The position numbers were made by a program, and so were the translations under genes. The notes under the pieces were generated by a model that did not search any database, was not told where the DNA came from, and was given only the letters and a program-made list of their open reading frames with translations. From a virus, in IMG/VR virus record IMGVR_UViG_3300048925_000679, positions 1-59,728 of that record: a DNA stretch of 59,728 bases; one strand, given 5' to 3'. Position 1 is the stretch's first letter; every line of letters starts with the position of its first letter. Positions 20,577 through 56,491 of the stretch are shown in pieces.

Positions 20577-20803
20577 CCGAGTTGCCCGAGCCCTTACGGT
20601 CGCAGATAGCAGCCATGATGGCGCAGCGTGACCTAGAAGTTGAGCGTCAACGCGCTGACCGAATGCGTGAGGACAGCAACAAACTCTATGAACTCCGCGG
20701 CTGGTTGCGCTTGTGCGCCGATGACCCAGCTGGTCATGAAGAGTTTTACCGGTGGGCATGTCACTACATCTTCGGCGACGAACCTCCCAAGGAGGACTCA
20801 TGA
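20573..20803 (+). CDS. Small charged helical protein (76 aa)
   Basis: GTG start. Residues 8-45 are a charged helix (RDLEVERQRADRMREDS) and the end is aromatic (FYRWACHYIFGDE). It directly precedes the glycosidase-like gene and carries its GGAGG ribosome site. Function unknown. Confidence 0.6.
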   Translation: MTELPEPLRSQIAAMMAQRDLEVERQRADRMREDSNKLYELRGWLRLCADDPAGHEEFYRWACHYIFGDEPPKEDS

Positions 20804-21678
20804 TCGGTATCAATCAGTCGAATCTGGTGCAGCTCACTCAACCTGACCTTGATCGGGTGTGCACGCAGATCGCCGCCTACGGGTTCTCTAGTGTGCGGTT
20901 CGCTGTGGATTGGGGTGTCCTGTCCAGCTTCGTCGGGGCGGTGAACTATACGCCGGTACAGCGGGCGGCTGATGCCCTGAAGAGGGCTGGGTTGTCGGCG
21001 TTGCCGGTGTTGGGGATCCATTACCCGTTCGTGCATTCCCCGACCTCGTTTGGGAAGTTCACGGCCCGTGTCGTCAGCATTTTCGGGGCACCGGCGTATG
21101 AGGTGTGGAATGAGCCGAACCTATGGACGTTCGGGATCGGTTCGCCGGCCACCTACCTGTCGTACCTGCGCGCCGCGGCCCCGATCATCCGCGACTCGGG
21201 GGCGAAGGTGATCTCCGCTGGCCTGGCGGCTTACCCGGATCGGAAGGTGCTGTGGCTGCGGCAGTACTCGCCGGTGACGTGGCTGGCCGGCCTGTACGCC
21301 GCCGGGGAAACCGGGGACTATGACCTGTTCGGATACCACCCCTACGCGCTGACGGTGGACGAGAAGTGGGCCAATCCCGACAGTCTCCCGTACGGGATCG
21401 AGATGATCGGCGCTCTCGACGCTCTCCGTACCCAGCACAACGATTCTCGCCCGTATGCGTTCACTGAGATCGGCTACGACACAGCCCGCATCAGCATCCC
21501 CACCGCAGCCCAATGGCTACCCCAACAATCCACCCTCCTCGCCACACACACGGCTCATCAGTGGCTGTTCTGCTGGCGAGACACTATCGGGGATGGGGGT
21601 AAGTACGGGTTGGTGGACGCCAATAACCAACCCAAAACCGTGTTGTTCGACGCAGTCAAACCACTAATAGGCCAATGA
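20800..21678 (+). CDS. Clan-A glycoside hydrolase-like protein (TIM barrel)
   Basis: A 292-residue protein with the hallmarks of a clan GH-A barrel (families such as 5 or 39): SSVRFAVDW (strand 2), EVWNEPN at about 101-107 with acid/base E105, YHPYA near 179-183, and ETTE-type nucleophile in FTEIGY (E223), followed by HQWLFCWRD. It would cleave a glycan. There is no signal peptide or linker, so it is cytosolic or released at lysis. Its place in the early operon, far from the tail and lysis genes, is unusual. The substrate cannot be told; cell-wall or capsular glycans are inference. Confidence 0.82.
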   Translation: MIGINQSNLVQLTQPDLDRVCTQIAAYGFSSVRFAVDWGVLSSFVGAVNYTPVQRAADALKRAGLSALPVLGIHYPFVHSPTSFGKFTARVVSIFGAPAYEVWNEPNLWTFGIGSPATYLSYLRAAAPIIRDSGAKVISAGLAAYPDRKVLWLRQYSPVTWLAGLYAAGETGDYDLFGYHPYALTVDEKWANPDSLPYGIEMIGALDALRTQHNDSRPYAFTEIGYDTARISIPTAAQWLPQQSTLLATHTAHQWLFCWRDTIGDGGKYGLVDANNQPKTVLFDAVKPLIGQ

Positions 21679-22207: not shown

Positions 22208-22401
22208 GCAGCTGGGTTGACGATGTTGCGTGCCAGTGCTTGACCAACGATCCGCAGTGGAGCGTCATACGTGGGGTGTGGACATGCTCCTGTGGGCGCG
22301 AAATGTCTCCCGGCGCAATCGCGGCCATGCACAAAGTCAAAGACGGGACTCACCTGAGTGCTGAGACGCTGAAAATGCTGGCAGCGGAGGTGCAGCGGTG
22401 A
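22204..22401 (+). CDS. Small Cys-containing protein (65 aa)
   Basis: CQCLTND and CSCGRE give two Cys pairs about 18 residues apart, a likely zinc ribbon. ATG in an ATGA overlap; ends with a GTGA overlap with the next gene. Function unknown. Confidence 0.55.
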   Translation: MSSWVDDVACQCLTNDPQWSVIRGVWTCSCGREMSPGAIAAMHKVKDGTHLSAETLKMLAAEVQR

Positions 22402-23060
22402 CCGCGGAACTGATCGACGAGGACGGAAACCTACCAGCCGCGAAAGCGATGCTCTCCGAGGCCGTATCAGCACTCATCGAACCGAAACCCACCAACCGGA
22501 AAATGGATGACGGCACCATCCGCATCGAATGGCTCGACGCCCTCTACGACCAACTACTGGATGCTGTCCCAGGAGGGCAAGGCAACGCCTCCCGAACCCC
22601 CCAATCCTCACCACCGATCAGCATCGACGCCACCGAACTGAAACACGAAATCGACATGGCCATCGCCGCGTGGGAACCGAAACCACAAATCGACGCCTCA
22701 CTTTTGAACATCCCACCCATCACCATCATCCGGCTGCAATCATTGGAGAAACGCCCCTGGCGGCCCCAGGACACCCGTTCTATCGAGCAGATAGCCAACA
22801 ACATCAGATCGTGGTGTGAGTCCATCAAAACGCTGCTCAACCCGATCCCGCAGTGGACCCTCCCAAATCCTTGCCCCGCCTGTAATACGGCGATCGTGTA
22901 CAGGCCGAACTCGGCCGGTGAAACGGTACGCAAACCCGCCCTCCAGATCGGCCCTACGGGCTGCGTGTGCCAAAACTGCCACCACGAGTGGGCGCCCGCT
23001 TATTTCCAGCATTTGGCGTCTGTACTCGGCTACGAACTACCAAATGGTGTTCTGGAGTGA
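22398..23060 (+). CDS. Last early-operon protein, C-terminal zinc ribbon (220 aa)
   Basis: A helical N-terminal 120 residues and a C-terminal zinc ribbon: NPCPACNTAIVY (about 160) and CVCQNCHHEW (about 190-200). The type is frequent in mycobacterial phages without a known role. GTG start. Its 5' half is unusually C/A-rich compared with the genes before it. An intrinsic terminator follows about 90 bases downstream. Confidence 0.65.
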   Translation: MTAELIDEDGNLPAAKAMLSEAVSALIEPKPTNRKMDDGTIRIEWLDALYDQLLDAVPGGQGNASRTPQSSPPISIDATELKHEIDMAIAAWEPKPQIDASLLNIPPITIIRLQSLEKRPWRPQDTRSIEQIANNIRSWCESIKTLLNPIPQWTLPNPCPACNTAIVYRPNSAGETVRKPALQIGPTGCVCQNCHHEWAPAYFQHLASVLGYELPNGVLE

Positions 23061-23622: not shown

Positions 23623-24159
23623 ATGGATTACAGCCTCGGTCTCCGCATCGAGACTGGCGATCATTACGCTCTTCTGCAGCACATCCTGACCCTCGATCCC
23701 CCAGGGATGGCGCTGGAATTCGGTGTCGGTGGAGGCGAAAGCACCCGACTGATCGCCGAACACATGCCGGTCCTCGGGTTTGATTCCTGGCTTGGCCTCC
23801 CCGAAACGTGGCGACCAGGATTCCCCAAGGGCATGTTCGCCGCCATGCCCCCCGCGATCCCCAACGCGGACTTCGTTGACGGCTGGTACGAAGACACCCT
23901 CCCCGATGCTCTCGACGGCATCGGTGATGTCGGTTTAGTTCACATCGACTGCGACCTCTACTCCAGCACCCACACCGTCCTCGCCGCCCTGCGTAAGCAT
24001 CACATCCTCACCCCAGGGACATTCGTCGTCTTCGACGAATGGCACTCCTACCCGGGGTGCGAGGACCACGAACAGAAAGCGTGGCGTCAACACGCCACCG
24101 GAATCGAATGGCAAGTCATCGGCCACGGGCACGAAAGCTGGGGCATCCGAATTGTCTAG
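23623..24159 (+). CDS. SAM-dependent O-methyltransferase, TylF-like
   Basis: A 178-residue class I methyltransferase. The SAM motif is LEFGVGGGEST (31-41), with FDSWLGLPE at 53-61 and the acidic HIDCDLYSS at 107-115 that in TylF/macrocin-type sugar O-methyltransferases binds metal. It is shorter than the macrolide enzymes. With two glycosyltransferases after it, a role in methylating a sugar on virion proteins or a surface glycan is likely. Confidence 0.82.
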   Translation: MDYSLGLRIETGDHYALLQHILTLDPPGMALEFGVGGGESTRLIAEHMPVLGFDSWLGLPETWRPGFPKGMFAAMPPAIPNADFVDGWYEDTLPDALDGIGDVGLVHIDCDLYSSTHTVLAALRKHHILTPGTFVVFDEWHSYPGCEDHEQKAWRQHATGIEWQVIGHGHESWGIRIV

Positions 24160-25027
24160 AACCATCGTCTTCGTCTTCGCCGGCCGCCAACCCAACATCG
24201 AAGTCGCACTCCCGTACTACCAGCGCATCATCGACCAACACCCGGACGTCGAACTGCACATCTGGGATCTGGCCCGCGACCCGCAAGACTCGGCATACCT
24301 ACGAACACTGTCGGACCGGTTCACCATCCGCACCGACTTTTACGAAGGCACAGGCCGCGCCACAAGCGGACAAACCCAAGTTTGGAAGCACTACGCCACA
24401 CCCGAATACCGGGACACCACTTTCGTCAAACTCGACGACGATGTCCTCTTCCTGGAAACCGACCATTTCGACGCGTTCGTCCAGGCAGCGCACGACAACC
24501 CGAAACACGTCACAGCTGCCCTCACCATCAACAACGGGGCGAGCACACGGCACATCCCTGACCTGTGGGATGGATTCCAAAAGCTCCGCCCCGCCATCCC
24601 CTCCGATGCCACATACCTGAACGCCGAGATGGCCACACTCTTGGCGGTACACAGGTCACCCGAGTACGCAGAGATGTGCCACCGCTGGTTCTTCGACAAC
24701 TGGCGCACCATCACCGGCAAGCCCACAAACCTCATCGTCACCGACGACTGGGTGTCCATCAACGCCATCACCTACTCGTGGGAGATGGGTTGCAGGATCG
24801 CCGCACTCATCGGACGCCAGCATCCACCCCGGGTCGCTGGACGCGTCTTCTCCCGCCGCCACCGCGTCGGAGATGAAGGCGCCGCCAACATTCTTCCGCG
24901 GTTCATCCATACCGGATTCGTCGCCGGCCATTTGAACTTCGGCCCACAAGTCAAGGCCATGGCGCCAGACCTGCTCGACGAACTACGCAAGCACTACGCC
25001 GACATCGCGCAGCAGTACCTCGCATGA
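24152..25027 (+). CDS. Glycosyltransferase (GT-A fold-like)
   Basis: A 291-residue enzyme. VFVFAGRQPNIEVALPYYQR at the start and KLDDDVLF (DxD about 95-97) are the donor-sugar-binding features; a second acidic block VTDDWVS lies at about 200. TTG start at 24152, overlapping the methyltransferase by 8 bases, so the two are coupled. It transfers a sugar to an unknown acceptor; phage structural protein is a reasonable guess from the known glycosylation of some mycobacteriophage virions. Confidence 0.8.
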   Translation: MSRTIVFVFAGRQPNIEVALPYYQRIIDQHPDVELHIWDLARDPQDSAYLRTLSDRFTIRTDFYEGTGRATSGQTQVWKHYATPEYRDTTFVKLDDDVLFLETDHFDAFVQAAHDNPKHVTAALTINNGASTRHIPDLWDGFQKLRPAIPSDATYLNAEMATLLAVHRSPEYAEMCHRWFFDNWRTITGKPTNLIVTDDWVSINAITYSWEMGCRIAALIGRQHPPRVAGRVFSRRHRVGDEGAANILPRFIHTGFVAGHLNFGPQVKAMAPDLLDELRKHYADIAQQYLA

Positions 25028-25713
25028 CCGCAGCAGTCATCATCCCCTTCCGAGATCGCGGACGAGACCCACTCAGGCAAGCCAACCTCAACCGCACACT
25101 CGAACACTGGTCCGGATGGGACGTCCACGTCGTAGACGACGGACGCCAAGGCGACGCCCAATTCAACCGACACAAGGCCTACAACACAGGCGCCACCCTC
25201 ACAGACGCCGACATCCTCATCTACGCCGAATCAGACATGCTCATCGACTTCACCCAAATCCATCAAGCGATGCGACTAGCCGAAACCCACGGCCTCATCG
25301 TCCCCTTCACCGAACGACACGAACTCTCACCCGACTCCTCCGAACTCGTCCGAGAACACAAGATCAAGCCCCAAGACGGACGAGCAGACGTCATCAAACC
25401 CAAACCACGACGCATCGGCGCCATCAACGTCATCTCCCGCCAAACCCTCACCGCAGTAGGGCAATGGGACGAACAGTTCGAAGGATGCTGGTGGGACGAC
25501 CGATCCATGCACCTAGCATTCGACATCTGCGCCGGACCCACCCAATGGATCGACGGACCATCCTGGCACCTCTGGCACCTCCCCGGATACCAAGGCGCAC
25601 ACCTCACCGGAGCCGACAAACAAGCAACAGCACGCAACAAGCTCCGCTTCCGGCAGTACCAACGAGCACGCACACCGGACCAAATCCGGCGACTCACGCA
25701 CGGAATCAAGTAA
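25024..25713 (+). CDS. Family 2-like glycosyltransferase
   Basis: A 229-residue enzyme beginning AVIIPFRDRG, with HVVDDG at 35-40, AESDM (DxD-type) at 68-72 and FEGCWWDDRSMHLAF at about 152-166, the acceptor-side motif of GalNAc-transferase-like enzymes. ATG overlaps the preceding gene by 4 bases. It ends 8 bases inside the convergent regulator gene. The strand is markedly C/A-rich. Confidence 0.83.
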   Translation: MTAAVIIPFRDRGRDPLRQANLNRTLEHWSGWDVHVVDDGRQGDAQFNRHKAYNTGATLTDADILIYAESDMLIDFTQIHQAMRLAETHGLIVPFTERHELSPDSSELVREHKIKPQDGRADVIKPKPRRIGAINVISRQTLTAVGQWDEQFEGCWWDDRSMHLAFDICAGPTQWIDGPSWHLWHLPGYQGAHLTGADKQATARNKLRFRQYQRARTPDQIRRLTHGIK

Positions 25714-48731: not shown

Positions 48732-49178
48732 GTGCCTGATCTTCCAAGTTATGCGGTGTCCTGGAACGTTTTCGACATTCCGGGGACGGTGCAGGCGGGA
48801 GAGTTGACGCGGCTCGCGTTGGCGAAAGCCCGCGCAATCTTCACCTCCAATCTGGAGCCGACGAGTTTCCTCACGTTCGGTGGGGATTCGCATCGTCCTC
48901 CGCACATCGTGTACGCGAGTGTGAATAATGCTGGCGCCCTGGTCGATAAGGATGGGGCCACTCTCAAACTGTTGGCGAATGATCCGGGTTTGTCGGTGAC
49001 GGGGATTCAGTGGCGGGCGACGATTGTGTTGCCGGTTCCTGGCCCGTTGCAGCAGTTGGAGATCGGCCCGTGGGACGCCCCCGAGGATGGGGATGTTCTG
49101 TTGTTGTCGTCTGTGGTTCCGACTGTCGCGCTTCCTCCGCTATCTGGTGGCGGCGGCATTATCGATGGGACACCGTAA
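48732..49178 (+). CDS. Tail-region protein (148 aa)
   Basis: GTG start. Beta-rich, ending with a Pro/Gly segment. One base overlaps the SGNH tail gene. Function unknown. Confidence 0.6.
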   Translation: MPDLPSYAVSWNVFDIPGTVQAGELTRLALAKARAIFTSNLEPTSFLTFGGDSHRPPHIVYASVNNAGALVDKDGATLKLLANDPGLSVTGIQWRATIVLPVPGPLQQLEIGPWDAPEDGDVLLLSSVVPTVALPPLSGGGGIIDGTP

Positions 49179-50995
49179 TGAGCACACCGATCGTCAAGTA
49201 CCGCCTAACGCCCTACCAGAGGACCGCCGCGGCGTTGGCCACGGAGAACGCGATCCCTTTACAGGGGGAGCGGGTCCGGGAAACCGACACGGGCCGCGAG
49301 AAGACCGGCGACGGATCAACGCATTACAATGACCTTCCGTACAACGAAGCTTTAGTCGAGTACGCGAACCAAGCTGCGTTTACTGGAACTGGGAAGCCCG
49401 GCAAAATCTATGTGGCGTTGGATACTGGTGATTCGTTCCGGTGGTCGGGGTCGGCGTATGTGCGGATCAGTGACCGTGTCACCGCCTCAGGCATCACAGA
49501 CTCTGGAGCGGTGGGACGGTCGGTTGTTCAGGCTGCAACCCAGGCGGCGGCGAGAATAGCGACGGATTCCGGGATGGCGCAGCGCGCCAGGTACGGCGCC
49601 CGAACCGTAGTCGATGGTGATTCGATCACCATCCGCCCCGGCACCGTATCCACATGGAACAGTTCCCCCGGTGGTTGGTCGATGGAGATGGCCCGCCTCT
49701 CCAATGGGCGAATTGACTTGCTGTACAACGCTGGCGTGTCCTCCACGGGGATCACGACCCGAATCTCAAACTTCCCCACGAAAGTCGCCCCGTACACCCC
49801 GGAGACGGTGCTGCTGGCTAACGGCACCAACGACATGTCCATCATGACCTTGTCGCAGTACCTGACGTATCTGGGCCAGTACTACGACCTGGTGCGCGGG
49901 ATCGGTGCGCAACTGATCCTGGGCGGGATTTACCCGAAGAACGTTGACGTCGATAAGGCGTCCTCGTGGAATGCGGGGATTGTGGATTGGGCGAAAACCC
50001 GTGGCGTTTTGGTAATCCCGTTCTGGGAGTTGGGTGACCCTACGACGGGGGCGTGGCCTTCCGGTTGGTCGACTGATGGTGTGCACCCGGATTACGATTC
50101 GCTGGCGTTCCCGGCGATCGGTAAGTTCGCGTGGCAAGCCGTGCAGCGCGCCTACACGGAACCGGTCGCAGCATCAGCTCGGTATGCCACCGATCCGGGG
50201 GCGTTGCTTACCTGCTTCTTCACTGATCTGACTGCGACGATTACTGGTGCGGCGACGATCACGGGGATTGTGTCGACGACGGGGACGTTGGCGGCGGGGG
50301 ATTACACGTATCGGGTGGTGGCCGGTAACCATTACGGGCAGGTGTCCGGGGTTGCTGATTCCACGATTACTTTGTCCGCTTCGACGGGGGCGACGATCAC
50401 CTCCGGGGCGTCTGGTTCGTATACGACTCGGCGGGTGTTCCGCCAGTCACCAGGCGATACGACGTTCTATTACATCGGGAACATCAATGTTGCTGGTACG
50501 CAAACGTTCACCGATAACGGTATCGCGAACGGGTACGCGTACCGGGCTGGTGATACCACCAGGTATCCGACGGGGATGATCACTGGCGGTTGGCAGGACG
50601 CGCAAACGTTAGCGTACGGACCTCCTGTTCGGGACGGAGCTTCGGAGGGGATTCGGGGCAACATTTTCCGGGGCGCCCGCTGCGAAGGGTCCGCTGTGTA
50701 CCGGTCGGACCGCTTCCTCATCACCGGGTTAACGGCCGGGCAGGTGGTGACGGTGAGTGTGAAGTGTAAGGGCGCGAACACGGCCGGGCAGGATGCGTTG
50801 CAGATGCGGTATTTCAACCCTGCCGGTGACACGCAGATCGATGTGGTGGCTTTGGGGGCTACTCGGTTCGGCACTGACTGGGGATTGATTTACGGGAGGA
50901 CGACAGTGCCGACCGGATCGGATCGGGTGTATGTGTGCCTTGAGGGCACTGCTACCAATCCGTTTAGCGACTGGGCTGAATTGAGGGTGTTCTGA
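49178..50995 (+). CDS. Tail protein with SGNH hydrolase domain (605 aa)
   Basis: An N-terminal tail-attachment part (1-110, LTPYQRTAAALATENAI), then an SGNH esterase at about 140-325: VVDGDSITI (Ser149), NAGVSSTG, LLANGTND, and DGVHPD (Asp300, His303). The C-terminal 270 residues are two beta domains that may bind glycans. It probably removes ester groups, for example acetyl, from surface glycan at adsorption. Catalytic Ser-Asp-His are all present. Confidence 0.85.
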   Translation: MSTPIVKYRLTPYQRTAAALATENAIPLQGERVRETDTGREKTGDGSTHYNDLPYNEALVEYANQAAFTGTGKPGKIYVALDTGDSFRWSGSAYVRISDRVTASGITDSGAVGRSVVQAATQAAARIATDSGMAQRARYGARTVVDGDSITIRPGTVSTWNSSPGGWSMEMARLSNGRIDLLYNAGVSSTGITTRISNFPTKVAPYTPETVLLANGTNDMSIMTLSQYLTYLGQYYDLVRGIGAQLILGGIYPKNVDVDKASSWNAGIVDWAKTRGVLVIPFWELGDPTTGAWPSGWSTDGVHPDYDSLAFPAIGKFAWQAVQRAYTEPVAASARYATDPGALLTCFFTDLTATITGAATITGIVSTTGTLAAGDYTYRVVAGNHYGQVSGVADSTITLSASTGATITSGASGSYTTRRVFRQSPGDTTFYYIGNINVAGTQTFTDNGIANGYAYRAGDTTRYPTGMITGGWQDAQTLAYGPPVRDGASEGIRGNIFRGARCEGSAVYRSDRFLITGLTAGQVVTVSVKCKGANTAGQDALQMRYFNPAGDTQIDVVALGATRFGTDWGLIYGRTTVPTGSDRVYVCLEGTATNPFSDWAELRVF

Positions 50996-51936
50996 TGCCA
51001 ACGATGTATGCCACGGCCGCGGAGTGGGCCGGGCTGAATCTGTTCGTCCCCGCCAACACGATTGGTGAGGAGTCCGATACCGGTAAGCGGAAGTCCGGTG
51101 GGACGGCAGGCAACTACTGGAATTCGTTGTCGTACACCAGCACCGCGTCGGGATCGTACAACTTCGACACGGTGCCCAGCGGTTCGGCGGTGGCCACTGC
51201 GGCGACTGCCACGACTTTGGCGGTTCGTGACTCGAACGCAAACCTCTCGGCGGATGGGTTCATTCCCTCTTCAACATCCACAGCGACGGCTGCGGGAACA
51301 ACAACGCTGACGGTGGATTCCACTGAGCTGCAGTTCTTCACCGGCACCACCACGCAGACAGTTCTGTTGCCGACAACGGGTGTGCCGGTGGGGCGACTGT
51401 TTGTCATCTTCAACACCTCCACCGGGTTGGTGACGGTTCAATCCTCGGGTGCGAACACCATTGGGTACGCCCCGGCTTCGGGTGGGATTCTGGTGGTGCA
51501 GGCGAACACCGCGACCCCGACAACGGCGGCGCATTGGACTGTCCGGTCGTATGCTGCGACTACCAGTTACACGTCTGGTGTGATCAGTGTGGCATTGCGG
51601 GACAACAACAACATCCTGTTCGCCCGGGCTCTGATTGCGGCGTCAACCACAACTGCCACCGCGGCCGGTACGACGACGTTGACTATCTCCAGCCCGACGA
51701 TTCAGATCTTCACGGGGTCGACGACGCAGACGATCACTTTGCCGACGACGACGGTGATTTTGGGGCATCGGATCACGTTCATCAACAAGTCGTCTGGTGC
51801 CCTGACGGTGAACTCTTCGGGTGGGAACTTGGTGGCGACGGTGGCCGGTGGGGCGACGGCCGAGGTGATGGCGAATCAGTCGACACCGACGACGGCCGCG
51901 CACTGGTCGGTGCTATCCAACGGTGGCACGGCTTAG
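50995..51936 (+). CDS. Tail fibre protein with two ~105-residue repeats
   Basis: Residues 75-184 and 199-307 repeat the same pattern: (L/V)A(V/L)RDxN, then STxTATAAGTTTLT, FTG(T/S)TTQT, and TPTTAAHW. The first 60 residues may attach it. Repeated beta domains of this sort act as fibre modules and receptor-binding spacers. ATG shares one base with the previous TGA. Confidence 0.75.
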   Translation: MPTMYATAAEWAGLNLFVPANTIGEESDTGKRKSGGTAGNYWNSLSYTSTASGSYNFDTVPSGSAVATAATATTLAVRDSNANLSADGFIPSSTSTATAAGTTTLTVDSTELQFFTGTTTQTVLLPTTGVPVGRLFVIFNTSTGLVTVQSSGANTIGYAPASGGILVVQANTATPTTAAHWTVRSYAATTSYTSGVISVALRDNNNILFARALIAASTTTATAAGTTTLTISSPTIQIFTGSTTQTITLPTTTVILGHRITFINKSSGALTVNSSGGNLVATVAGGATAEVMANQSTPTTAAHWSVLSNGGTA

Positions 51937-52724
51937 GTTGGGCAGTTGACCTGGGTGTGGCCGAACGGTGCCGCCGTCGTGCACGGCACAGGCGGACTCA
52001 GCTGATCAACAATCAGCGCCCCGATCTTCTCGGCAAGCCACACATGCCCCGCATCGTTCGGGTGAATCCCATCCTCCCCGATCAACTCCGGATGCCCGAC
52101 CAGCCAGCCATCAGTGATCGGATCGACCCACACCGCGTGGGCCTTGACCGCTTCAGTTCGGATGATGTCGCGGGCCTCCAACACCTCGGGTGGGGGTTCC
52201 CCGACAGGCCACGCAGGACCGATCACCAACAATGATGCAGTCGGGGCTTTCACTTTGATCGCCGCCAACGTGCCATCCACAGCAGCAGGTAGATCCTGCA
52301 GGTGCTCGGTGTTGTTGCGCGACCCGAATACCACCACCAGTCGGGAGTTCGACTTCACCACCTTCGGTACCTCCGCGGCGAAGTCGGTTCCGTTGTGTCC
52401 GGGTTTCCCGTACCCGGATGCACCCTCAGCGCCTTTGAGGATCGACACCGGATGGTCCGGGTTGAGTTGCCTCTCGACCAGTGCGGGCCATCCGTGATCG
52501 CCTTGCCCGCCCATCCCTGACCCGCTGGTGTAGGAGTCGCCGATCACCGACACGATCGCCGCCGGCACTTCCGGTGGGGGTGGGGTGTACCGGGATTCGT
52601 ATGCCGGTGGTGTCTTCGGGTACAGGAACATGGCTGTCCCGGCAATCACCGCGGTAACTGTGAGACCGGCGAGGACCAAGTATTTCAGCCGGGATGTCTC
52701 TGTGGAGTTACGTCGGTGGCCCAT
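51933..52724 (-). CDS. Membrane-anchored SGNH hydrolase, lysogenic-conversion candidate
   Basis: A 263-residue protein. Residues 13-35 are one membrane helix, 37-55 a Pro-rich linker, then an exported SGNH/GDSL esterase: VSVIGDSYTSG (Ser64), FGSRNN (134-137) and DGIHPNDAGH (Asp218, His221). It probably cleaves acyl esters on the cell envelope. It is leftward within a rightward late operon and has its own -10, so it could be expressed from the prophage. It ends by overlapping the fibre gene's stop. Confidence 0.84.
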   Translation of the reverse strand: MGHRRNSTETSRLKYLVLAGLTVTAVIAGTAMFLYPKTPPAYESRYTPPPPEVPAAIVSVIGDSYTSGSGMGGQGDHGWPALVERQLNPDHPVSILKGAEGASGYGKPGHNGTDFAAEVPKVVKSNSRLVVVFGSRNNTEHLQDLPAAVDGTLAAIKVKAPTASLLVIGPAWPVGEPPPEVLEARDIIRTEAVKAHAVWVDPITDGWLVGHPELIGEDGIHPNDAGHVWLAEKIGALIVDQLSPPVPCTTAAPFGHTQVNCPT

Positions 52725-53088: not shown

Positions 53089-53407
53089 GCTGGTTTTCGA
53101 AAATTGCCAGTGCGTGACGGAGTCCGGCCAGATAACTGTCGGCCCTCAAGTGCTCCGGGGTGTCGATCTCAGTTGACATGAGTGCTTCAAACGCGGCGCG
53201 TTCATCATGCTGAAGAGCGGTGTACCAGAGTCCCTCATCAAGGGGTTCTGGTGGAGCGGAGCCGAGGCGGGCCTCCGCAGTGTCTGCCGAACCTTCGACG
53301 GCCCGGAGCCGCATCGAGAAGGTGTGCCATTGGTCCGGTTCGATGCGCTGGGCGAGCCAATGCGCGAATGTGGCGAACTCAGGCGAGTTGTAAACGTCAA
53401 TAGACAT
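53081..53407 (-). CDS. Unknown protein, first gene of the RHH operon (108 aa)
   Basis: A mostly helical, acidic protein with no motif I recognise. The start at 53407 is chosen because GAGG lies upstream and the direct repeats are left free; a start at 53455 would bury them. With the RHH gene it resembles a toxin-antitoxin layout in reverse order, but no toxin fold is seen. It is convergent to the small gene at 52802 and divergent from 53479. Confidence 0.6.
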   Translation of the reverse strand: MSIDVYNSPEFATFAHWLAQRIEPDQWHTFSMRLRAVEGSADTAEARLGSAPPEPLDEGLWYTALQHDERAAFEALMSTEIDTPEHLRADSYLAGLRHALAIFENQRA

Positions 53408-53425
53408 ACCGCCAAGCCTACCTCG

Positions 53426-53463
53426 TGTCATAACACCAAGCAAGCCACATGTCATAACACCAA
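53426..53463 (-). promoter_or_regulatory. Two direct repeats upstream of the RHH operon
   Basis: TGTCATAACACCAA occurs at 53426-53439 and again at 53450-53463, 24 bases apart. Read leftward, TTGGTGTTATGACA may contain a -10-like TATGAC. The repeats lie just upstream of the leftward gene starting at 53407 and before the rightward gene at 53479, so they could be operators for the RHH protein. Confidence 0.6.
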
Positions 53464-53478
53464 ATCACTAGGAGCCCC

Positions 53479-53625
53479 GTGCACGTCCTCACCTTTCACG
53501 GTGTCCCGCAGGTCCGTTCCGAACGGTGGCAACGGTTATGCCTCGCCATGGCCGCCTACCCCGCCGACGAGCAGGAGCACCTGCATATCCAGTCCGGCAC
53601 GGCCAACGTCCCAATCCTGCGCTGA
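53479..53625 (+). CDS. Small protein (48 aa)
   Basis: GTG start after TAGGAG. No motif recognised; contains HxHIQSG-type residues. Rightward restart of the late genes after the leftward island. Confidence 0.45.
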   Translation: MHVLTFHGVPQVRSERWQRLCLAMAAYPADEQEHLHIQSGTANVPILR

Positions 53626-53635
53626 AAGGCCCAAT

Positions 53636-53962
53636 GTGAAGAAGCTCCTCACCGACCTGATCAACGCCGCCATCGACAACATCCTCACCCGCATCAATCT
53701 TGAGAAGCGCCTAGATGATCTGCGGCAGGACGCCAAGGCAGAACTCGATGAACTGCGGGACAAGGCATTCGCCGAACTAGAGGAGACCCGCGACAAAGCG
53801 TTGGCGATGGTGAAGGAATCCCTCCCGGAGATGGCGGCGGCCGTCAGTCAGGCGGCAGTCACCTCCGTGTTCGACCACACCCAGATAGACGAGACCACCG
53901 ACCGTGTGACGGATGTCTTCACCAACATCCTCGACCGGCTGCCATTCGGGTTCGGCAAATGA
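53636..53962 (+). CDS. Coiled-coil protein before the lysins (108 aa)
   Basis: GTG start after AAAGG. Residues 5-70 form one long charged helix (RLDDLRQDAKAELDELRDKA) with a repeated DKA unit, followed by Ala-rich and hydrophobic helices. No membrane helix is obvious. Probably a minor structural or lysis-linked protein. Confidence 0.65.
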   Translation: MKKLLTDLINAAIDNILTRINLEKRLDDLRQDAKAELDELRDKAFAELEETRDKALAMVKESLPEMAAAVSQAAVTSVFDHTQIDETTDRVTDVFTNILDRLPFGFGK

Positions 53963-55230
53963 GTTTCGTCTGGAAAGCGGCGCAACGCCTCAAGACTCCA
54001 GAACAGGTCATGGCCGTCATCATCCAGACGGTTGACGAACTGAACATGCCGGACAAGCGGGGTGCTGCGATCTGCGCCGGTATGTGCGTCGCGCAAGAGT
54101 CCGACTTCTGGTGCCCATGGAACGCCGCAGATCCTGAATCGAAGAATTATCCCTACGATTCGCAATCCGACGACGGCCGATCGGTGGGCTACTACCAGCA
54201 GCAAAAGGGCCCCCGTGGGGAACTGTGGTGGGGGCCGACGTCGCAGGAAATGGACCTCAAACTGTCCACCCGCGAGTTCCTTACCCGGTTGAAGAAGAAC
54301 GGCTACAACGCATCGAATGCGCAGGCCGCCAACGACTCCGTCCAGGCAGTGCAGCGTTCCGGTGTCCCGCAGGCGTACGCGAAGCACTGGGGACGAATCA
54401 ACACCCTCTACGACAGCGTCCAGAGTGGCGCAGTACAGGAGCCCGCAGTGGGAGTATCAGGCGACCCGATCTGGCTGGAGGACGTACTACGTCCCGCACT
54501 CGGAGACCGGCTCAAAACCTTACCCGGATGGCAGGACTCCGGCGTCGGCGGAACCATGGGCCAAATCTGGGGGATGATCTGGCACCACACCGGCAACGGT
54601 GCGGCCACCGCCCAATCGATCCGAGACGGACGCCCAGACCTCGCAGGCCCGTTGTCCCAGTTGCACATCGCGCAGGACGGCACTGTCACCATCGTCGCTG
54701 TCGGGCCGTGTAATCACGCCGGCAAGGGATCCTGGGATGGGCTGCCCACTGATAACGCGAACGATCGCACCATCGGCATCGAGTGCGCGTGGCCGCGGGA
54801 CACCAGCATCACGGAAGCCACTCAGACGCGGGAGCGTTGGCCGGACGCGCAGATCATTTCGATGCGGGACACTGCAGCGGCGTTGTCGCTGCATCTTGGC
54901 GTGGATGCGTCGCACAACATTTCACACAGTGAGTGGGCACGATTCGGGCCTGCGGGGTTTAGGCAGGGCAAGTGGGATCCGGGGAACCTGGACATGAATT
55001 GGTTCCGCGGCGAGATCGCCAAGGACATGCGTGGCGAGTTTGATAAACCGTCTACGCCTCCGGTGGTGACACCACCCGTCGGCCCGACTCCGATCCCGCG
55101 CGGTGACGCGGATCTTCAGCTCACCACACGGTTCAACTGCCTCGGCGGACAAACCCTCGTCGAAGCTCTCGCGGAAGTGCGGGACAAGGTGCTCGGCACC
55201 AATGACCGTAAGAAGACAGGAGCGATCTGA
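53959..55230 (+). CDS. lysA: Lysin A: lysozyme-like plus amidase endolysin
   Basis: 423 residues. The N-terminal 1-150 resemble a lysozyme/GH23-like lytic domain (CVAQESDFW with Glu47, then VGYYQQQ). Residues 195-350 are a PGRP-type amidase: IWHHTG (209-211), CNHAG (H253), IGIECAWPR, H323 and D340 (KWDPG). The C-terminal 60 residues, after a Pro-rich linker, are a possible cell-wall-binding end. It cuts peptidoglycan at the end of infection. Confidence 0.92.
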   Translation: MSFVWKAAQRLKTPEQVMAVIIQTVDELNMPDKRGAAICAGMCVAQESDFWCPWNAADPESKNYPYDSQSDDGRSVGYYQQQKGPRGELWWGPTSQEMDLKLSTREFLTRLKKNGYNASNAQAANDSVQAVQRSGVPQAYAKHWGRINTLYDSVQSGAVQEPAVGVSGDPIWLEDVLRPALGDRLKTLPGWQDSGVGGTMGQIWGMIWHHTGNGAATAQSIRDGRPDLAGPLSQLHIAQDGTVTIVAVGPCNHAGKGSWDGLPTDNANDRTIGIECAWPRDTSITEATQTRERWPDAQIISMRDTAAALSLHLGVDASHNISHSEWARFGPAGFRQGKWDPGNLDMNWFRGEIAKDMRGEFDKPSTPPVVTPPVGPTPIPRGDADLQLTTRFNCLGGQTLVEALAEVRDKVLGTNDRKKTGAI

Positions 55231-56240
55231 TGCGCATTGGAGATACCTACGTCGGGCTGGGTGAGGGTGATGAGTCCGATGAGGTTGGCAAGATCATCGA
55301 CTACGTCCGCCGCATGTACACCCCAGCCCGCAATACCGTCGCACCCGGACGCTTGTTCACACCAGCACTGACGTCTGAGATCAAACGTGAGCAGGAAGTG
55401 TTTGTCTCACAAGGAAAACTGAAGGGCGGGGAGTTCATCCCCGGCGTCGTGAACCTCGCATGGAAATACGCTTCCGGGTACCTGAAGAAGGACAAGCTGC
55501 TTCCGCTGTACTTCTCTGCGGAGGGGCACATGTCAGACATGAACGTCGGCCCGGTGGCGTGGGTGGGGCAGGTGCTTCATAACGAAGGCCGGGCGCTGCA
55601 CTTCCCAACGTTCTACGTCAACAACGCAATTCCGTTCAAGACCAGGACTGGCATCACTGAACTCGCGCGCCGCGTAGGGCAGACGGTCCAAGACAACGGC
55701 GTCAAATTCCCTGAGGGAACCCCGTGGGCGCTCGGCGGATTCTCCGAGGGTGGGCTACTGATCTCGAAGTTCTACCTCGAATACCTGATGCCCGGGAAGC
55801 CACTCAACTGGCGATTGAAGGATCTGCGCGGTGTCATCTGCTGCGGGTCGCCATACCGGGAGAAGGGTGTCGTCGCCGAGTGGATCCCCGACCCGCCGGC
55901 ATCTGATCGCCAAGGCATCTCCGATGTCCGACTCACTGATACCCCGTGGTGGTGGAAGGAAGTCGCCCGCCATGGCGACTTGTACACCGACAACGAATCA
56001 TCCGGGGATCGGGCGTTGTACAAGACGATGTGCTACAAGATCATCGCCGAAGGCAGCTTCTCCGGCGGTAAGGCGGGATTCCTGGCCCGCGTCATGGACC
56101 TTCTCACGCCGTCCGATGACTTAATCCCGGTGGCTCTGGCCATCTTCGACGGTTTGAAGTTCCTCACCAATATGTCTCCTCATGGGATCTACAACATGGA
56201 TCCGGCCGTGCAGTTCCTGCGTGAACGCCTCGCAGCCTGA
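55230..56240 (+). CDS. lysB: Lysin B: mycolyl-arabinogalactan esterase
   Basis: 336 residues with an alpha/beta-hydrolase core. The nucleophile elbow GFSEG has Ser172, an Asp near 250 (HGDLYTDN) and a His near 318 (SPHGIYN) complete the triad. Lysin B detaches the mycolate outer layer, so the host must have mycolic acids. ATG shares one base with the lysin A stop. Confidence 0.94.
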   Translation: MRIGDTYVGLGEGDESDEVGKIIDYVRRMYTPARNTVAPGRLFTPALTSEIKREQEVFVSQGKLKGGEFIPGVVNLAWKYASGYLKKDKLLPLYFSAEGHMSDMNVGPVAWVGQVLHNEGRALHFPTFYVNNAIPFKTRTGITELARRVGQTVQDNGVKFPEGTPWALGGFSEGGLLISKFYLEYLMPGKPLNWRLKDLRGVICCGSPYREKGVVAEWIPDPPASDRQGISDVRLTDTPWWWKEVARHGDLYTDNESSGDRALYKTMCYKIIAEGSFSGGKAGFLARVMDLLTPSDDLIPVALAIFDGLKFLTNMSPHGIYNMDPAVQFLRERLAA

Positions 56241-56266
56241 AAGTTTCAATCGAAAGGGAATTCATC

Positions 56267-56491
56267 ATGCAGGTACCAGCGCTCGTCAAGGATCTCGTCG
56301 AGCGGGCGGTGAAGACCGCGGCCCAGACCGCACTCACTGTGCTCGGCGCTGACCAGCTCAACCTTTTGAATGTCGACTGGGAAACCGTCGTCGGCCTGTC
56401 TGGTGGCGCCGCGCTGCTGTCCGTGTTGACGTCGCTCGCATCGTCTCCGCGTGTCGGCACACTGTCGCCCGCGTCCGCGGTGAAGCAGTAA
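56267..56491 (+). CDS. Holin (r1t-type)
   Basis: 74 residues starting with a helix that includes DLVERAVKTAAQTAL and a later hydrophobic helix (VVGLSGGAALLSVLTSLA). This is the actinophage r1t holin pattern. It would form the membrane lesion that times lysis. ATG after GAAAGGG. Confidence 0.85.
   Translation: MQVPALVKDLVERAVKTAAQTALTVLGADQLNLLNVDWETVVGLSGGAALLSVLTSLASSPRVGTLSPASAVKQ

Follow-up and report, generated by a model that had tools for sequence, protein, structure and literature searches.

The 59,728-nt stretch analyzed here (hereafter the window), which is the whole IMG/VR virus record of a temperate mycobacteriophage with an integrase at 1-1116, encodes a stand-alone protein that is almost certainly a clan GH-A glycoside hydrolase (GH), with the predicted activity of a retaining beta-glycosidase of the PslG (GH39-like) type. 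Its gene would be an accessory, moron-like gene of temperate mycobacteriophages. Tentatively, and with somewhat less than even confidence, we read the product as a cytosolic, holin-released accessory lysis enzyme acting on a beta-linked envelope glycan; activity, substrate, timing, and release we infer. The portal protein of the window is 81% identical to those of Mycobacterium phages RitSun, Soul22, and Jabbawokkie, and its LysB matches 1343 phage records, nearly all from Mycobacterium.

The GH open reading frame runs from an ATG at 20800 to a stop codon ending at 21678, exactly the limits in the initial annotation. An AF2 model of the protein formed one complete (beta/alpha)8 barrel (pLDDT 89.1, pTM 0.90). 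Among its eight strands, E105 was located just past strand 4 (99-102) and E223 within strand 7 (219-224), which in the model is the clan GH-A arrangement. The hallmark of the clan is present: a 4/7 barrel in which the putative acid/base Glu, preceded by Asn (N104-E105), follows strand 4 and the putative nucleophile, E223, is at strand 7. Both glutamates were invariant in an alignment of 41 relatives, as were R33, W103, N104, N107, H180, Y182, and G225. The initial annotation had proposed a clan A TIM barrel with Glu105 and Glu223 as its catalytic pair; the barrel was borne out by the model and by comparison with Foldseek and VIA-align, and the pair by its invariance and its placement at strands 4 and 7.

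Taken alone, the protein scored above cut-off with none of the Pfam or NCBIfam models and matched no PHROG; PF00150 came closest, with an E value of only 0.24. Structure prediction and GH-family comparison, the route suggested by the initial annotation, yielded a barrel with a predicted active site and PslG (GH39) as nearest relative. PslG of Pseudomonas aeruginosa was the top structural match of the model by Foldseek (E 8e-15) and by VIA-align 2 (Z 25.8, rmsd 3.0 A, 275 aligned), the runners-up in the latter being GH39 5jvk and 2bs9 (a GH39 xylosidase), with GH1 chains tied with or close behind 2bs9. It was also the best PDB sequence match for a profile of the five closest sequences (E 4e-7) and for the 41-member profile (E 2e-47). 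By sequence profile and structure, the protein is nearest to GH39 (PslG branch); because no curated model scored above cut-off, we label it GH39-like and do not file it under GH39. It is, by predicted fold, a GH39-like clan GH-A enzyme, with catalysis likewise predicted.

GH and PslG have in common a barrel aligned over the whole protein and the WNEPN and TE catalytic motifs. GH differs in being only about 20% identical, shorter, a single barrel domain, and without a signal peptide, and in being encoded by a phage rather than in an exopolysaccharide operon. PslG is classed in GH39 and is an endo-beta-glucanase (PMC11912335), and GH might likewise, once freed at lysis, cut beta-glucan or another beta-linked exopolysaccharide (a biofilm or outer-layer glycan) and so aid the spread of progeny, as PslG cuts Psl. 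Consistent with such a role are the relatives that are secreted and, in some mycobacteria, multiplied (up to 10 matched places per genome), as well as the GH-A barrels of other phages, of which one distant relative is a tail-protein domain. However, at about 20% identity the substrate of PslG is not transferable, and GH carries neither a binding module nor a secretion signal; we consider this explanation unlikely.

Close relatives of GH were found on two viral contigs, L002 (77% identity) and L003 (62%; L003/G2), and, at 52%, on the chromosomes of Mycobacterium sp. URHD0025 and M. wolinskyi. Together these five form one clade (100/100), joined by a long branch (2.8 changes per site) to the cellular enzymes. 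Among named phages (50,697 records) no relative of GH was detected at tblastn E<=1e-3; when a cellular homologue was the query, the sole match was Caulobacter phage Cr30. Further viral scans with alignments as queries revealed no additional close phage copy, and plasmids held no close relative, only matches of <60% identity. Because it is so rare, the gene appears to be dispensable. Its dN/dS relative to the 77% and 62% copies was 0.19 and 0.23, respectively (range 0.19-0.26 among phage copies), with synonymous sites far diverged; judged from these substitution rates, the gene is under purifying selection, and functional rather than decayed.

Most cellular relatives are secreted glycosidases from Mycobacteriales, and a hydrophobic N-terminal segment precedes the domain in 72 of 90 homologues, as expected of exported proteins. 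Secreted paralogues annotated as "cellulase family glycosylhydrolase" (in Mycolicibacterium, Rhodococcus, Williamsia, and Gordonia) share a homologous domain with GH at about 20-34% identity, with invariant catalytic residues, but most are exported, many are longer or multidomain, and they lie across the long branch from the phage-type clade. The five members of that clade have no hydrophobic N-terminal segment, and the phage-type copies begin at the barrel. For the window protein, no N-terminal hydrophobic stretch reached KD17 1.6, in agreement with the initial annotation, which had seen no signal peptide; it had also seen no tail-attachment domain, and since the barrel occupies the entire protein there is indeed no tail module. 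PslG-like glycosidases have a patchy distribution in cells: a profile search matched 33 of the 78 genomes of the L013-host genus, some with up to 10 matched places. Both 52% chromosomal copies have polymorphic-toxin genes no more than about 3 kb away (L005:4523-7051, L006:12689-14749; PT-HINT with NucA/NucB; GH-E nuclease). These toxin genes have an N-terminal region in common, and tRNA genes are found at a distance of 6-9 kb.

The setting of the gene differs among the phages. In the window and in L002, GH belongs to the right arm, past the replication genes and ahead of terminase; within the window it is the last in a chain of overlapping genes that begins at about 19041 (Table 1). The initial annotation placed it inside an early operon, coupled to its neighbors. 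The position, in the 3' part of a gene string that runs from replication genes to terminase, and the ATGA overlap were both upheld; such coupling does not show early action. Promoter scans of the neighborhoods of both loci found no sigma-70-like site, the sigma-70-type model being uninformative for mycobacterial promoters. Phage MooMoo has the same right-arm layout (DUF7341 gene, glycosyltransferase genes, HNH at the end) without GH, so GH looks like an accessory insertion in this arm. In L003/G2, GH follows the tail genes and a divergent lipoprotein-like gene and is first in the lysis cassette, in the order GH, small ORF, 100-aa gene, Amidase_2 LysA, LysB, and r1t-type holin. GH is thus encoded alongside LysA, LysB, and holin in L003/G2 and not in the window or L002.

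Table 1. Features of the window at and around the GH gene, and its lysis cassette.
Feature	Position	Strand	Remarks
Hypothetical gene upstream of GH, coupled, 228 aa	19890..20576	+	One named relative, phage Fancypants gp38
Hypothetical gene upstream of GH, coupled, 76 aa	20573..20803	+	Relatives in Mycobacterium/Gordonia phages without GH
AGGAGG ribosome-binding site and ATGA stop/start overlap with preceding gene	20786..20803	+	
Stand-alone PslG-like clan GH-A glycoside hydrolase (GH) gene, 292 aa	20800..21678	+	Predicted from sequence profiles and AF2 model
Predicted acid/base Glu105, in WNEPN	codon 21112-21114	+	
Predicted nucleophile Glu223, in FTEIGY	codon 21466-21468	+	
DUF7341/DUF7340 gene	22398..23060	+	Conserved right-arm marker (MooMoo gp87)
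TylF-like methyltransferase and two glycosyltransferases (phrog_4447, phrog_1721)	23623..25713	+	Similar right-end module in MooMoo
Lysis cassette without GH	53207..56491	+	53207 ORF; LysA Amidase_2 53959-55230; LysB 55230-56240; holin-like 56267-56491

In the window, L002, and L003, GH was found outside the tail operon, as a single domain; a fusion to a tail gene was seen only in the distant relative L004, where a related GH-A barrel forms the C-terminal portion of a tail protein of 1688 aa. The family is thus deployed in three ways in actinophage-type contigs: in the right arm, in the lysis cassette, and as a tail fusion. The last of these, together with the several phage GH-A barrels that sit in large proteins, would suit a virion-associated enzyme used at entry. 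For the GH of the window, which is a barrel alone and, like its two closest viral relatives, encoded outside the tail operon, we regard that role as highly improbable. The tail gene of L004 is located at L004:5660-10726, after the tape measure gene. A different protein of the window's tail region (49010-50995, 661 aa) has a GDSL lipase/acylhydrolase domain and is a candidate for attack on the mycobacterial lipid layer at entry.

Downstream of GH, the TylF-like methyltransferase/glycosyltransferase module precedes the HNH and terminase genes. Two glycosyltransferases of a cluster F1 phage have been interpreted as capsid-glycosylation genes (PMC11256854). A functional tie of GH to the neighboring glycosyltransferases was considered and is unsupported, as MooMoo has such a module without GH. 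The same observation weighs against a lysogeny moron that, within the lysogen, trims a glycan of the host or the phage (such as those made by these glycosyltransferases) or serves some unrelated role, as does the GH of G2, which is not adjacent to a module of this kind. Such a moron would fit the glycosyltransferases and methyltransferase 2-4 kb downstream of GH, the divergent lipoprotein-like gene that GH adjoins in G2, and the persistence of chromosomal copies in two mycobacteria, but we judge it very unlikely. Just ahead of the window's lysis genes is a reverse-strand gene with an N-terminal hydrophobic segment (51933-52724), possibly a lysogeny-expressed moron; in L003 the corresponding position is taken by a lipoprotein-like gene, likewise on the reverse strand.

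The proposed role in lysis would proceed as follows: because it has no export signal, GH would accumulate in the cytosol, as LysA does. Its place as first gene of the L003/G2 lysis cassette suggests a LysA-like route, with release by holin; once the holin opened the membrane, GH would gain access to the envelope and would then cleave a wall polysaccharide with beta linkages, the most plausible one being the beta-D-galactofuranan of arabinogalactan, beside LysA (peptidoglycan) and LysB (mycolyl ester). That placement of the 62% relative, in another phage, also favors the late release that the initial annotation had suggested. Mycobacteriophage LysA and LysB resemble GH in having no classical signal peptide and in sharing its cassette in G2; their folds and targets are different from those of GH, itself a rare accessory protein.

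Enzymes of clan GH-A work by a retaining mechanism on beta-D (or alpha-L) linkages. In mycobacteria, by contrast, storage and capsular glucans have alpha linkages, which makes the host storage glycan named in the initial annotation an unlikely substrate; we set it aside on this ground of linkage stereochemistry. GH5 falls in the same clan as GH39-like enzymes. Its member GlfH1 (Rv3096), a mycobacterial GH5_13 exo-beta-galactofuranosidase of arabinogalactan, is a precedent for beta-Galf-cutting chemistry in mycobacteria (PMC10115798), and a beta-Galf substrate would suit a lysis role for the phage enzyme. Since arabinogalactan contains a galactan built of beta-D-Galf units (PMC7278926), the linkage preference of the clan points to this galactan as the most plausible target in the envelope. 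A further precedent, for phages attacking arabinogalactan, is provided by the DUF4185 endo-D-arabinanases, among which a member from Gordonia phage GMA6 has been tested (PMC10115798), although these belong to another family and cut another linkage (alpha-D-Araf).

Several observations argue against a role in lysis. Neither the window nor L002 has GH among its lysis genes, and the lysis cassette of the window is complete even so. A signal peptide is also missing from the 52% chromosomal copies, yet no recognizable lysis genes were found near them. The rarity of the gene, and with it its dispensability, weighs in the same direction, and PslG itself is an endo-beta-glucanase. That GH is a phage galactofuranase acting from inside the cell, whether as a third lysis enzyme cutting galactan between the LysA and LysB targets or, at an earlier stage, on the lipid-linked precursor of galactan in the cytoplasm, seems to us rather unlikely.

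Galactan is polymerized on the cytoplasmic face prior to export, so a beta-galactofuranase without a signal peptide could block arabinogalactan synthesis early in infection. An early cytoplasmic enzyme of this kind, cutting the lipid-linked precursor, would accord with the absence of a signal peptide, with the right-arm location of GH and its overlap coupling to pre-terminase genes in the window and L002, and with the beta-Galf linkage of galactan (PMC7278926). It is nevertheless decidedly unlikely, given that the relative in G2 adjoins lysis genes and that no galactofuranase activity is known for the subfamily of GH.

The mycobacteriophage lysis enzymes already described act on peptidoglycan (LysA) and on the mycolyl-arabinogalactan ester (LysB); our search of open-access papers turned up none described for the galactan layer that separates these targets. 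GH is a rare variant of a known enzyme type in an uncommon phage setting. If galactan is its target, this soluble phage enzyme, small and consisting of one domain, would serve well in wall analysis and would broaden the model of mycobacteriophage lysis.
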